From assembly GCF_001421015.2 (NCBI RefSeq), contig NZ_CP013023.1:1605501-1669500 (forward strand): 64,000 bases of DNA, written 5' to 3'. Under the pieces are notes generated by a model, which saw only the letters and a program-made list of their open reading frames with translations, had not been told where the DNA came from and made no database searches. The DNA comes from Paenibacillus bovis (lineage in GTDB: Bacteria; Bacillota; Bacilli; Paenibacillales; Paenibacillaceae). Below are positions 22,956-45,858 of the stretch, in pieces; positions within the stretch are counted from its first letter, which is position 1; each line of letters starts with the position of its first letter. The position numbers and the translations under genes were made by a program.

Positions 22956-23038
22956 CTGGCGTATCTATCGTAGCTTTGGAGATGGGTTAGGGAGTTTCTG
23001 GGAGAATGGACTGGGGTGGGATTGCTTCATCCGCTTCA

Positions 23039-23143
23039 GAAAGAGATTCTGCCACGACCTCCGGTTAAGCATAGAGATCCTGAATGACCGCCAGGCGGTC
23101 GATCTCTATTCTTAAATGTCGGTCTTTGGCAGAATTCTCTTTC
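23039..23143 (+). repeat. Structured 105-nt hairpin element, copy 1
   Basis: The ends GAAAGAG-ATTCTGCCA and TGGCAGAATTCTCTTTC pair with one bulged base. An inner stem TTAAGCATAGAGATC pairs with GATCTCTATTCTTAA with one mismatch. Between the stems lies the conserved internal loop CTCCGG on one side and TGTCGGTC on the other. The apical loop folds as GACCGCC-A-GGCGGTC. It lies 83 bases after nirD. Two related copies are at 42894-42999 (same strand) and 35492-35596 (opposite strand); the paired positions change together. Its nature is unknown: structured RNA, REP/MITE-like palindrome or long terminator. Confidence 0.8.
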
Positions 23144-23314
23144 CTTCGCTCGGAGTGGGGAATTCATTTGAAAACTGCTGTGTAGTAAGTTTTATATATT
23201 GAATTCAACGGTAGCTTGAAAAGTTAGACATGTTTTAGTGAAGAAAAAAGTATCTAAAAATACTGCTTTATAAGTAATTTTCACTTCGGATAATGAATTG
23301 CAGATAGAACAAGC

Positions 23315-23366
23315 AGGCACTATTCTGGCGGTCACCTTGCGGTGATCATCAGAATGGTGCCTTTTT
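23315..23366 (+). terminator. Terminator with long composite stem
   Basis: AGGCACTATTCTG pairs with CAGAATGGTGCCT (one G-T pair), with an inner GGTCACC/GGTGATC stem, followed by TTTTT on the plus strand. It stands well downstream of nirD. The rest of 22956-23395 holds only hairpin element copy 1. Confidence 0.75.
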
Positions 23367-23395
23367 GGTTTGCGTTTTGTTTTGAACGGTCGTTT

Positions 23396-23995
23396 TTATT
23401 TATTCACAATAAGCACATCGATTAGTTTGCCGTTGTTAGCACCAAAGTACATTGTAACTTTATCATAGGTATACATCATTACCTGATCATACCCTTCTAA
23501 AAAATCATTCTCCTGACTGTCTGGTTTACCAAGAGCTTTGCGGATATCTGTAAATGTCTTACCTTGGAAGCCTGGAGGAACAATCAGAATACCAGAAAGA
23601 GTATGATTCGGGCCTTCAAAGAAAAAAACAGCATTCGGCATATTGCTTAGCTTGAAGTACTCTCCGCCGAGATAGTAGTCGGAACGCACCGGCTGACCAT
23701 AAATTTTCTGGACTTGCTGCATAGTCATGCCGAAGCGTAGTTTGTAACCGGGAATATAACCTTTTTTCAGCATGCTTCCTGTTTTGCTGTTCAGCGGCAT
23801 CACCGGAGAAGTAGCTGCCAGAGTAGCAAGCATAGGTAGAGAAGCAGCAGATACTGATGGACTGATCTGAAGCTGTGAAGTCAGGGGACCTGCGAGTTCC
23901 TTTTTATAGGCCGCCGCTTCCAATTCAGCTGGGCCGCTCAAGTTCACAGTTAACAGGGCAGTCAGCAGGCTGGTAACTGCATATTTTTTGATCAT
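23396..23995 (-). CDS. Secreted YjgB/DUF4309-like protein
   Basis: A 199-residue exported protein. A signal peptide (MIKKYAVTSLLTALLTVNLS, cleaved near the Ala-rich EAAA) is followed by a low-complexity linker and a C-terminal domain from about 75. That domain resembles DUF4309/YjgB: RFGMTMQQVQKIYGQPVRS, then YFKLSNMPNAVFFFEG and FTDIRKALGKPDSQEN. The two 'G-x-P' repeats suggest an internally duplicated fold like that of SmpA/BLIP proteins. AAAGGGG lies before the ATG. It stands alone between opposite-strand units. Confidence 0.65.
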   Translation of the reverse strand: MIKKYAVTSLLTALLTVNLSGPAELEAAAYKKELAGPLTSQLQISPSVSAASLPMLATLAATSPVMPLNSKTGSMLKKGYIPGYKLRFGMTMQQVQKIYGQPVRSDYYLGGEYFKLSNMPNAVFFFEGPNHTLSGILIVPPGFQGKTFTDIRKALGKPDSQENDFLEGYDQVMMYTYDKVTMYFGANNGKLIDVLIVNK

Positions 23996-35319: not shown

Positions 35320-35491
35320 GATAAACGATGACAACCAATTTATGAGTAAACTTGATAAAACCTGATATACAGGTTAAATGGATGCTATAGATAAATAGCT
35401 TAAAAGTACTACAAGTATCAAGAGATACAAGAACATTGAAAAGAAAAAATCGAAAGTAGCCTGCCAAGGTATGCAAATGCTCAGAATGGAA

Positions 35492-35596
35492 GAAAGGAAA
35501 TAAGGGACAGGACGACCTTTAAGCCTGCAGATCTTCCTTTACTCTCCCATCAAAAGATCTTCAGGCTTAACCGGAGGACAGGCCTTTATTCCTTTC
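35492..35596 (-). repeat. Structured 105-nt hairpin element, copy 3 (opposite strand)
   Basis: Read on the minus strand it has the same length (105) as copy 1 and the same CTCCGGTTAAG at offset 21-31. It also has CTTAAA followed by GTCG on the 3' side, and GAAAG/CTTTC at the ends. The outer stem is a different sequence (GGAATAAAGG against CCCTTATTTCC) but still largely pairs. The inner stem TTAAGCCTGAAGATCTT pairs with AAGATCTGCAGGCTTAA with one mismatch. Sequence has diverged while pairing and the loop blocks are kept, which suggests function as RNA or structured DNA. Confidence 0.75.
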
Positions 35597-35921
35597 TGGA
35601 GTGGATGAAGCTCCCATGACCCTGAGCTCGATAAAACTCCTTGCTGCCAAATGAATCTAGCCATCCAAGCATGCCAGCTACCTTATCTACACCCAGCACT
35701 GCAACTTGTATAACCTACCTTTATATGGAAAAAAGTGACAACCGAATAACAAATATTTAATACAAATTATCAGAATATTGATATACGGATGCCCCCAAAA
35801 ACTTTACGCTTAATATAGAAAGGTATTGGTGAAATACAATCTAGCAGGTAACCAGCCTGCAACGTATACAGCCAGATGCTGAAATACAGCGGCATCCGGT
35901 TCCAAGGAGGAGAGTATTCAT

Positions 35922-42613: not shown

Positions 42614-42893
42614 AGTAGCCCTCCTTACCGTCAATAAGTTATGTATGAGTATAGGACGAATCTAACCGATTATATCCAAAGCTAAACCTTTCTCCAAATG
42701 CTTGTTAGGGTAAAGGATCAGGTGCATGTTCTACAAATAACATATGCAGTGGGTCATAAATGTCATAAAATTAGCAGCTTTAGAGCGGCTTGGTATGCGG
42801 ATAACAATTTGTTTTGGCGGTATATTGGAAAGTAGTGAAAAAATATTGAGGAGTCGGCAGTTTTGGTAGCTGGTTTGGTGAGAGATCGCTGCG

Positions 42894-42999
42894 GAAAGAG
42901 ATTCTACCACTCCCTCCGGTTAAGAATGGAGATCCCGACAATCGCTTGCAGCATTCGATCTCCATTCTTAAATGTCAGTCGTTGGTAGAATTCTCTTTC
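42894..42999 (+). repeat. Structured 106-nt hairpin element, copy 2
   Basis: This copy matches copy 1 (23039) in length, ends and loops. The outer stem is ATTCTACCA with TGGTAGAAT where copy 1 has ATTCTGCCA with TGGCAGAAT. The inner stem is ATGGAGATC with GATCTCCAT where copy 1 has ATAGAGATC with GATCTCTAT. Both are paired changes that keep base pairing. The inner stem TTAAG...GATC is perfect over 15 pairs. It lies in the 42614-43232 spacer, where no gene is visible. Confidence 0.85.
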
Positions 43000-43232
43000 C
43001 TCCGCTGCATGCAGAGCAATCTTGTGGAGCAGATCTTACTAGCTGAGATGCAGTAGGGATTTTAAGGAAGAGTAGATGAATAGGCAGTTTTTAGAGGATA
43101 GAAATTTAGCTTCTGCACGATTTATCTTTAAGCATTTATCGTTCATTATTCACCAGCCACAGCTACCTGCATAGCAGTAGTATTTCGCCCAGACTTATAT
43201 GCTCAGGCACATACAGTCATCTAACACATGGC

Positions 43233-43314: not shown

Positions 43315-45858
43315 TTAAAGAAAGGAAACTTGATTTTTGCCCATATTCTTCGCCTGCATAAGCGCTTCTTCGGCGCGCAGGATCAGATCGGTCGGGTGCA
43401 TCAATGGGTCTGGATTTAGGATAATACCACCGACGCTGACGGTAATGTATTCGCCCGAATTGGACATATCGGTCGGGATTTGTAAAGCGAGTACATTACT
43501 GCGGATTTCGTCAGCGAGCTCGAATACCTGCGTCTCGGAAGTACCCTGAATTTTCATCATAAAGGTACCACCGCTAAAGCGGGCAATATCGGCGCTATAC
43601 TTGGAGCTGACAACGTTCAGTACATCGCCGACCCATTGAACGCAGAGATCGCCACCATTCAATCCGTGGATCGCATTGTATTCGCGCAGATCGTCGATGT
43701 CGATCAGCAGCAGGGAGACCTGCTGATCTTTTTGGATAGCCGTATACCAGTCATCCAGCATTTTCTTTTCAAAAGCCACGCGGTTGGGCATATCGGTCAG
43801 TGGATCGGTAGCCATATAGCTCTGCAGTTGATCACTCATGACAGTATAAGCTTCGGTAAGTCCGGCTTCCTCCTGAGCTTCACGCGCGATGATCATGACA
43901 GATGGCTTGCTGCCATAGCTTATCGAGGCCAGCGTGAGTTCCAGCTTGATCGATTCACCTTCAACGTTCTGGAAGCAGGAATTGTTGGAGATCATATGGA
44001 TCAGATTCTGCTCCAACTGATCCAGGTAGCTGATCATATCCGATTTGAAATTATCCTGAACAAACTGCAGGAAGTCGCGTCCGACCAGTTCGCTGGATTG
44101 CCCAACTCCCAGCAGCTCGGCGGCCTGGTTATTGGAATAGATAATGTGCCGATTCGTCAGGGTAAAGAACGCCACCGGCGACATTTCCATCAGCTGCATG
44201 TACCGCTGTTCATTGCGGCGCAGCGTCCGAGCATCCTGCAGAGCCTGATCTTCGATCTGGCGCAACTGGTTCTCGGTCTGCTGATGCACAATCGACTTGA
44301 GTTCCGGCAGGATATTCAGTTCCTTGTTCTGCCAAGGCAGGGAGGTGGACTGTACGACCTGTCTCCATTTCTCAAACGATTTACGCGGCGACAAGCGTAT
44401 ACCGTCATCTTCCTGGATCACGGCTTTGGCCGGATCGCCTGCCCAGTCTACGACCTGCACTACTTCCGGACGGAACCAGATAATGTAGTTTTGCTGCCCC
44501 GGCGAGATCGCCAGGTACAGCGCACCGGAAGCTTTGTCCTTGTAGGCTTTGGCCGATTCGTATTCAAGGCTCAGACGGGAAGTTGCATAGGCATAATCCC
44601 GTGAGCGGCTGCCGAGCCAACCCGCCAGTTCACGTACCTGACCGGGATTTGGTGTAACGCCATACAGCAGCAGCTTGTCCTGGTAGCTGACTGCAGCGCC
44701 GGAAGCGCTCATTAGGCCAAGCAGTGTGTCTTCTTCGTCCTGTAGCTGTTCGGCAACACGTACAGCACTGGTTGCACCGGTAAAGATGCTGGAGATACGC
44801 AGTGCCTGCTTACGCAGCTGCAGTTCGCCTTCGTAGCTGTCCAGCTGCTGACGCTGGTAGAGCTCGCTGGAGAAGAACGAACCGAGGAAGTTGCACAGAT
44901 TGCGCAGACGATGGGAAATATATTTAGGTGAATAGTGGTGACAGGTAATCAGTCCCCACAGCTGGTTGTCATGGATCAGGGAAATGGTCAGTGTTGCGCC
45001 TACGCCCATATTATGCAGATATTCGATATGCAGCGGAGATACGCTGCGCAGCACGGACAGGCTGAGATTTAGCGGTTTGCCAGTTAGTGGCTGTACGGCT
45101 GGCAGTACATCGACAGGTTCATAGTTTACGTCCACAATCACACGCAGCCAGTTGCGCAGATACAGCGCCCGTGCCTGCTTCGGAATATCCGATGCCGGAT
45201 AGTGATGACCGAGGAAAGGTTCCAATCCGTCAGCTTTGGATTCTGCGATAACTTTACCATTCCATTGTGTATCAAATTCATAAATCATTACCCGGTCATA
45301 ACCGAGCATATCCTGAATCTGTTCTGCCGCCGCCTGACTGGCTTCGGTACGACTGCTGGTCTGCTTCACCAGATTGAAAAAGCTGCGAATCCATTCAAAC
45401 TCATTAAAGATCCGGTCATCTTCCTTGGAAGAAACCTCCATTTCCAGAATGATCAGTCCTTCACTTTCATGCAGTACCACGAAGAAATCAACGATCTCTT
45501 CACCGACTTCTATCGCTACTTCGGTATACTGCAGATCCGATGTTGCTTCTGCTCTAAGATCGCTATTCAGCAGGGTAAACAGCTGCTCTTCACCAATAAT
45601 AGCTTCCAGCGGCTGACCGAGCAGTTCGTTGACTGGACGTCCCAGCAGATCGCCGGAGTTGGCACTGCATTGTACAATCTGGTTTTCACTGTCTTTGGTA
45701 ACAGCGAGCAGTACCCCATGGGGCTGAATGCGCCCTGGAATATGAATCGGTTCACGGTCACAGTTGGTCAGATCGATCGGTTCCTGGGTAACATACCCGC
45801 CATCCGTTAATAGTGATCGGTTTAGCGGTTGATTTTCCTTTTTTTGAGCATCAGACAT
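43315..45858 (-). CDS. bphP: Bacteriophytochrome with PAS and degenerate GGDEF domain
   Basis: An 847-residue red/far-red photoreceptor. Order: N-terminal extension with the biliverdin-binding Cys33 (LTNCDREPIHI), PAS, GAF with PASDIP at 221-226 and conserved His near 307, PHY with the PRKSF tongue motif, a second PAS (about 555-670), and a GGDEF-like domain. In the last, the active loop reads FSGGTF instead of GGDEF, so diguanylate cyclase activity is probably lost; it may be a regulatory or GTP-binding remnant. The heme oxygenase gene that makes its chromophore is just upstream. A histidine kinase output is absent. Confidence 0.93.
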   Translation of the reverse strand: MSDAQKKENQPLNRSLLTDGGYVTQEPIDLTNCDREPIHIPGRIQPHGVLLAVTKDSENQIVQCSANSGDLLGRPVNELLGQPLEAIIGEEQLFTLLNSDLRAEATSDLQYTEVAIEVGEEIVDFFVVLHESEGLIILEMEVSSKEDDRIFNEFEWIRSFFNLVKQTSSRTEASQAAAEQIQDMLGYDRVMIYEFDTQWNGKVIAESKADGLEPFLGHHYPASDIPKQARALYLRNWLRVIVDVNYEPVDVLPAVQPLTGKPLNLSLSVLRSVSPLHIEYLHNMGVGATLTISLIHDNQLWGLITCHHYSPKYISHRLRNLCNFLGSFFSSELYQRQQLDSYEGELQLRKQALRISSIFTGATSAVRVAEQLQDEEDTLLGLMSASGAAVSYQDKLLLYGVTPNPGQVRELAGWLGSRSRDYAYATSRLSLEYESAKAYKDKASGALYLAISPGQQNYIIWFRPEVVQVVDWAGDPAKAVIQEDDGIRLSPRKSFEKWRQVVQSTSLPWQNKELNILPELKSIVHQQTENQLRQIEDQALQDARTLRRNEQRYMQLMEMSPVAFFTLTNRHIIYSNNQAAELLGVGQSSELVGRDFLQFVQDNFKSDMISYLDQLEQNLIHMISNNSCFQNVEGESIKLELTLASISYGSKPSVMIIAREAQEEAGLTEAYTVMSDQLQSYMATDPLTDMPNRVAFEKKMLDDWYTAIQKDQQVSLLLIDIDDLREYNAIHGLNGGDLCVQWVGDVLNVVSSKYSADIARFSGGTFMMKIQGTSETQVFELADEIRSNVLALQIPTDMSNSGEYITVSVGGIILNPDPLMHPTDLILRAEEALMQAKNMGKNQVSFL

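Follow-up and report, generated by a model that had tools for sequence, protein, structure and literature searches.

The window analysed here, a 64,000-nucleotide stretch of the Paenibacillus bovis genome, carries three copies of a palindromic element, each with a C-rich tract on one side (Table 1). The first copy lies after nirD, as had been proposed from the sequence, since the preceding gene encodes a Rieske_2 domain of the NirD type and itself stands behind a gene for a NirB-like protein. Copy 1 follows this gene in the F sense, where F denotes the orientation from the CCGCT flank to the CGCTC flank (the strand of the preliminary description) and R its reverse complement. A terminator-like hairpin beyond copy 1 aligns in all three species compared, and its sole Rfam match was mir-5882 with 27.2 bits against a gathering score of 95. 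The neighbour of copy 2 (43315-45858, minus strand) is a gene for a bacteriophytochrome-like protein with PAS_2, GAF, PHY and GGDEF domains.

Table 1. Copies of the element and associated features in the window. R1 and R2, covariance models.
Feature	Positions	Strand	Remarks
Copy 1	23030..23156	+ (F; R strand is minus)	R1 132.2 bits, R2 117.2 bits; hairpin core 23039-23143
Copy 2	42885..43012	+ (F; R strand is minus)	R1 127.4 bits, R2 104.1 bits
Copy 3	35479..35605	- (F on minus; R strand is plus)	R1 77.5 bits, R2 71.3 bits; apex degenerate
C-rich, G-poor tract directly 3' of copy 1 on R strand	22956..23029	-	74 nt: C 29, G 9
C-rich, G-poor tract 3' of copy 2 on R strand	42735..42884	-	150 nt: C 44, G 14; nearest 60 nt C 22, G 3
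C-rich, G-poor tract 3' of copy 3 on R strand	35606..35755	+	150 nt: C 43, G 21; nearest 60 nt C 19, G 10
Bidirectional terminator-like hairpin, separate from the element	23305..23372	.	between copy 1 and the minus-strand gene at 23396

Rereading the sequence of copy 1 recovered all motifs named in the preliminary description, namely the GAAAGAG/CTCTTTC ends, the internal loop with CTCCGG and TGTCGGTC, and the inner stem TTAAG..GATC/GATC..CTTAA. Both double changes claimed for the copy at 42894 were also borne out: the outer TTCTGCC/GGCAGAA is replaced there by TTCTACC/GGTAGAA and the inner ATAGAG/CTCTAT by ATGGAG/CTCCAT. The minimum free energy of positions 23020-23160 is -61.1 kcal/mol (z -5.5), a value that none of 200 shuffled sequences equalled. 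Copy 1 folds better on the minus strand (-62.4 vs -57.3 kcal/mol); copy 3 is a weaker copy with a fold z of about -2 on either strand. The length of 105 nt given earlier is correct for the hairpin core (23039-23143) but not for the whole unit, as conservation reaches about 23030-23156 (~129 nt). In an alignment of 27 copies, drawn from 30 loci of which L023, L027 and L028 were dropped, the unit is delimited by conserved flanks, CCGCTnCGG on the left and CCTnCGCTCnGTGC on the right, with about 129 nt between the limits, and the profile of 91 copies agrees.

Read on the R strand, the element has between its flanks GnAGCGnAGG and CGnAGCGG a long stem, whose internal loop is conserved, and an apical stem, in which a TTCA bulge is conserved. 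In other genomes the R-strand core, as judged by eye, has GAAGCGnAGCGTTCGCCTTTG on its 5' side and ACAGCGATCGGAAG on its 3' side, with a TTCA or ATCA bulge below the apex. Also by eye, a small side hairpin, GCGAA-GCG-TTCGC, can be seen on the 5' side of the core on the R strand of these genomes, and it is missing from most copies of the home clade. It is thus the unpaired parts that are conserved, and the paired parts vary.

A covariance-model search, the check by which the preliminary description proposed to judge the family, found 91 copies in the genome and was positive in relatives as well. A DNA search of the home genome gave 46 matching pieces. Model R1, built from the 27 copies, located 89 distinct places (a list compiled by hand that leaves out opposite-strand echoes and two overlapping hits at 4788703 with E 0.15-0.2), and rescans of the loci added two. 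At E 0.01, R1 had a match in 12 of 39 genomes, the home genome counted. There were 84 matches in the relative G004 and 85 in G011, and three other species of the genus had 45, 35 and 34, all counted among the best 88 candidates at most per genome and possibly including opposite-strand echoes. A scan of named species genomes for the exact motif, outside which the home genome possibly lay, returned 71 stretches, only from P. wulumuqiensis, P. dauci and P. hunanensis; the form described initially is thus one clade's version.

The second covariance model, R2, was made from alignment A4 (40 copies from ten genomes, of which 23 are from the home genome). It matched 91 of 118 sampled genomes of the family in 12 of 19 genera at E 0.001, many genomes having at least 29 matches, and at E 1e-4 it matched 65 of 99 sampled genomes of the order Paenibacillales, other families among them. 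Copy numbers in these large groups are lower bounds, as the best 22-35 candidates per genome were scored, and matches of E 1e-4 to 1e-6 in genomes with a single copy may be due to chance. In the class sample, the 12 positive genomes out of 151 all belong to the home family, and the 20 listed among the 139 genomes without a match are every one from other families. A phage or plasmid origin was rejected, since a search with one copy (L251) gave no match among phages and a single record in the plasmid collection, a 2.7 Mb replicon of P. cellulosilyticus.

The comparison with Rfam that had been suggested gave no match: release 15 had none at gathering score in the window, and when 22956-23395 and the loci of eight relatives were searched with lax settings, all matches were sub-threshold ones to microRNAs and lay outside the elements, so that a known RNA family was rejected. 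The statement that no named element has such a sequence also held, as the literature searched under Paenibacillus, from which subscription journals are largely absent, contains no description of it; the family is apparently undescribed. ERIC-like repeats are imperfect palindromes of 100-150 bp between genes, and by this general description, rather than by sequence, the element resembles them and similar repeats. Among published repeats, the palindromic intergenic ones such as REP and bcr come closest. The bcr1-bcr18 repeats of the Bacillus cereus group are described in one report (PMC3446304) as intergenic, structured and partly transcribed in UTRs, with bcr1-3 being MITE-like; the present element is likewise intergenic and structured, a likeness of description, and it comes from another clade. 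REPs, according to one account (PMC3733652), are 20-40 bp long with a GTAG or CGTC end, and another (PMC2817692) mentions that they reportedly facilitate Rho-dependent termination. REP/BIME/REPIN systems with RAYT proteins (Y1, IS200/IS605-like) are similar in that many intergenic palindromes occur per genome with inverted neighbours. They differ in that the unit here has ~129 nt, a conserved internal loop, bulge and flanks, and the feet CCGCTnCGG and CCTnCGCTCnGTGC instead of GTAG/CGTC.

The Y1 transposase family (PF01797) had no match in five genomes (G000, G001, G004, G005 and G011; the home genome is without one), and it was present in 7 of 24 genomes, element-rich and element-poor alike. 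Lacking a Y1 transposase, the home genome is unlikely to contain a resident REP/RAYT system, and mobilisation by it is unsupported, the unit type being different as well; an enzyme that was present formerly and has since disappeared is possible. For the earlier suggestion of a REP-like palindrome, taken strictly as a RAYT-borne REP, there is thus no resident transposase in this genome.

That this is a repeated, structured family with real covariation was confirmed overwhelmingly against controls with slid arms and shuffled sequences. Two of the outcomes named beforehand as refuting, an absence of further copies and stems that do not covary, thus did not occur; for the third, a match to a known transposon end, the search covered Y1 transposases. 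Standard pairs fill 86.9% of the pair cells of A4, compared with 62.7% in shuffles and 40-50% with the arms slid; 35 of 36 pairs have changed on both sides (27.4 in shuffles), and the covariation score is 0.61 versus 0.19 in the control. In alignment A2, whose 89 rows represent 87 distinct copies because L092 and L093 overlap and two places occur twice (the pair table was taken on 89), Watson-Crick pairs make up 2777 of 3009 cells, and on the modelled strand, that of the preliminary description, G-U with 54 cells is no commoner than A-C with 59. When the stems are read on the R strand, the pair-table tally of G-U to A-C is 53:21 in A2 and 45:28 in A3, two alignments that share ancestry, and it is 54:33 in other genomes, 15 of the 54 falling at one position. 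One-sided changes between orthologues, counts that are not fully independent, likewise give on R more G-U than A-C (47 vs 23, p 0.006). Wobble pairs of all kinds are rare for an RNA. Folding energy as an argument for the R strand holds in the home clade only, where R folds better than F in 59 of the 88 copies with unequal energies; elsewhere the numbers are 29 vs 26.

Comparison of orthologous sites adds to this picture. At site 4029038 the outer stem differs from its P. wulumuqiensis orthologue on both arms (L140 3501-3630 vs L155 5391-5520) while the 92-nt interior is identical, a clean natural example in which to study how arms change in concert. At site 863728 both arms of the apex are different from those of the P. 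dauci orthologue and look like those of another subtype. Across all orthologues there are 28 two-sided pair changes, 8 of them in element 4029038. Read as template switching or conversion between copies, the concerted changes at 4029038 and 863728 suggest that part of the covariation is probably a DNA process. Given the rare wobbles and arms that sometimes change in concert, covariation alone is no proof of an RNA. The covariation stated in the preliminary description is thus real, but on the strand first described G-U is no commoner than A-C and at one orthologous pair both arms changed together. DNA-level copying that renews the stems and RNA-level selection that keeps loops, bulge and flanks can both be true together.

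By our own simple gene calls the copies are intergenic; two of the first 89 overlap a called gene end, by 26 nt at most. Twenty neighbouring pairs less than 700 bp apart (40 of the 91 copies) were found, and all 20 are convergent in F and divergent in R, as are eight inverted pairs in loci of other genomes, some of which are related. The 18 pair spacers examined are 88-559 nt long, several containing microsatellites, and no common sequence among them was seen by eye, for which reason a composite transposon body with homologous spacers was rejected. Short tandem repeats of several different units occur in the spacers L093 3630-3823, L119 6594-7143 and L153 3629-4049, and in the L114 spacer the number of repeat units differs between species.

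Among the 51 solo copies, R is co-directional with both genes in 27 and reverse to both in 6, while 14 lie between convergent and 4 between divergent genes. Between tandem genes R is therefore co-directional in 27 of 33 cases (p 0.0003). For the F orientation the commonest context is that both flanking genes are on the opposite strand; as this antisense position applies to 43 of 89 copies, a sense 3' UTR element of the preceding gene on the strand first described was rejected as a rule. A replication-strand effect was also considered: R is mostly on the leading strand (gene strand and skew served to set the replichore limits), but the same is true of the genes, and the ratio of 12 vs 6 where the two flanking genes point in different directions is not decisive.

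The second directional feature is the C-rich tract on the 3' side of R, which is seen at all three copies of the window. In the 150 nt downstream of R, C exceeds G in 74 of 77 copies (those of the 89 with more than 60 nt there) in any gene arrangement, including 17 of 17 copies whose R strand is antisense to the two genes. Over the first 60 nt the frequencies are 0.311 for C and 0.130 for G, a C/G ratio of 2.4 that declines to 1.07 at 180-240 nt. Stretches of C>G that are 78 nt or longer are present in 53% of 79 R-downstream tracts versus 9-10% of control tracts, the tract is less folded (-13.7 vs -25.1 and -20.6 kcal per 100 nt in the controls), and YC steps are more frequent (0.146 vs 0.091-0.106). 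The R-upstream side in the home genome is also C-skewed, though less (a C/G ratio of 1.28 within 60 nt of the element, and C>G stretches of 78 nt or more in 37%), so that the tract is not wholly one-sided. In other genomes, where some of the copies are related, C exceeds G in the 60 nt downstream of R in 46 of 56 copies, with 5 reversed and 5 ties, compared with 29 vs 24 upstream. The 74-nt tract of copy 1 is missing both in G004, where the element is present, and in G011, where it is absent. The G004 element directly adjoins the end of nirD, where the antisense strand is already richer in C (21 C and 10 G in 60 nt); the presence of the element there without the 74-nt tract indicates that the two are not strictly inseparable. 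From gene orientation, the C-rich tract and the excess of G-U over A-C we favour R as the acting strand, i.e. the strand opposite to that of the preliminary description.

No T-run follows the hairpin directly on either strand in the profile of 91 copies, where the flanks CGnAGCGG on R and CCTnCGCTC on F are found, and hence an intrinsic terminator fails as an explanation. Terminators of this type were counted with a script that is blind to hairpins longer than 45 nt and misses the one at 23305-23372, so that the following counts are rough: they are present at 13 of 41 3' ends of R-facing genes, compared with 78 of 154 control gene ends (p 0.035) and 13 of 20 F-facing genes (p 0.026). This deficit is weak and is absent for tandem genes (9/27 vs 38/94, p 0.65); at convergent solos, 10 of 14 F-facing but 4 of 14 R-facing genes have a terminator. 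In at least 10 of the 41 R-facing genes an intrinsic terminator precedes R.

A transcript end that has been terminated by Rho and trimmed looks like a stable hairpin with a C-rich, G-poor stretch of weak structure behind it. Here, too, a tract with C>G and weak structure stands next to a stable hairpin on one strand, a likeness in sequence to Rho-dependent terminators, and Rho is encoded in 12 of 12 genomes checked, including four without an R2 match (G017, G020, G040 and G069). The conserved, repeated structure sets the element apart from ordinary Rho sites, for which we know of no such structure. We tentatively favour the possibility that the element, on its R strand and at the level of RNA, acts together with Rho as an intergenic transcription boundary. 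Transcripts leaving a gene, or antisense transcripts entering the intergenic region, would load Rho on the C-rich tract, would be terminated beyond it and would then be shortened by trimming as far as the stable hairpin; where two R copies are divergent, genes would be separated by a boundary in both directions. The data establish the family, its structure, its conservation at resident sites, the strand-fixed composition, the orientation rule and the presence of a rho gene; R-strand transcription, the action of Rho and the 3' trimming are steps that we infer. Points that speak against this reading are the F sense in which copy 1 follows nirD, the Rho of genomes that lack the element, the rarity of wobbles and the terminators that already precede R at some R-facing genes. 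An extended version appears unlikely as a whole, namely that directional boundaries exist throughout the Paenibacillales, with a structured RNA carrying its own Rho-loading tract at about 100 intergenic sites, divergent pairs insulating genes from read-through and antisense transcription, and a protein that specifically recognises the TTCA bulge and the conserved loop.

The element was kept in 58 of 63 orthologous comparisons evaluated (out of 65), which is an upper bound as targets had been chosen because they contain a copy. Identities were then counted without the five comparisons that gave no hit at 1e-11, one of which, 1838086 in L205, does have a weaker match. Over ungapped columns of 45 intergenic regions, identity between species is 92.4% for the element, 76.0% for the spacer and 89.0% for the adjoining gene ends, and the element is more identical than its own spacer in 43 of the 45. 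Not all sites are stable: G004 has lost half of copy 2 and G011 retains a remnant of it, half-deleted and hybrid forms being found at its site in relatives. Our favoured reading is that of a mostly vertically inherited, conserved, strand-specific and structured element that may act in intergenic RNA.

Several of these observations can also be accounted for in other ways. The palindrome might act as DNA, a double-stranded or extruded hairpin being bound by protein in chromosome organisation, recombination or repair, with the arms kept matched by template switching or by conversion between copies that rewrites both. This would explain the dominance of Watson-Crick pairs in A2 and the lack of a G-U preference on the modelled strand, the joint arm changes at 4029038 and at the 863728 apex, and also the microsatellites in spacers and the 3' arms that are sometimes tandemly repeated. 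We nevertheless hold it to be somewhat unlikely: the gene orientation, the C>G tract and the R-strand excess of G-U are unexpected if the element is strand-symmetric, and the internal loop and TTCA bulge remain unmatched although correction would erase both. A Rho-independent role in the untranslated region, where the element would stabilise or regulate the adjoining mRNA in the manner of the transcribed repeats of Bacillus cereus, or an independent small RNA seems improbable. Stable hairpins close by genes would suit it, and bcr repeats of B. cereus are reported to be often located in UTRs (PMC3446304). On the other hand, within 60 nt of its two ends the profile of 91 copies shows neither a strongly conserved promoter-like motif at a constant distance nor, on either strand, a T-run right after the hairpin, and a terminator already stands ahead of the element in the R-facing genes mentioned above.

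A non-autonomous, MITE-like mobile element, moved by some other enzyme and with convergent copies as the ends of composite units, is in our view unlikely, despite the high copy number, the dispersal and the lineage-specific subtypes. Also in its favour are site polymorphism, with copy 1 present in G004 but not in G011 and with the remnants at copy 2, and pairs that are always convergent in the home genome. Against it speak the retention of most copies in orthologous comparisons (biased upwards by the choice of targets) and the conservation of resident copies beyond that of adjoining gene ends. The 18 spacers share no sequence by eye, and at the few copy-lacking sites aligned there is no clean target duplication or empty site. 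Finally, the Y1 family searched is lacking in 5 of 6 element-rich genomes of the genus, and the one copy searched had no phage match and one plasmid-collection record.

An abundant structured element (91 copies here and many in relatives) that is conserved order-wide and apparently unnamed so far offers a testable case for three questions. One is by what means the two arms of a repeat palindrome stay complementary, another how read-through and antisense transcription are kept in check in Gram-positive genomes, and the third whether domestication has occurred in intergenic repeats that have no resident transposase. With the covariance models R1 and R2 the element could be annotated immediately.

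Some copies depart from the common form. One copy (L143 3501-3641) has the core motif TCCGGTTAAGA duplicated internally. In one genus, direct tandem arrays with a period near 184 nt occur (L252 1501-2001, L254 1501-1823 and L067 1501-1820), and in several copies the palindrome reaches outward past the modelled unit. The 3' arm of the element, together with some downstream sequence, is repeated head to tail after 5341-5469 in L115 and beside copies at L259 and L264, suggesting slippage at the hairpin.
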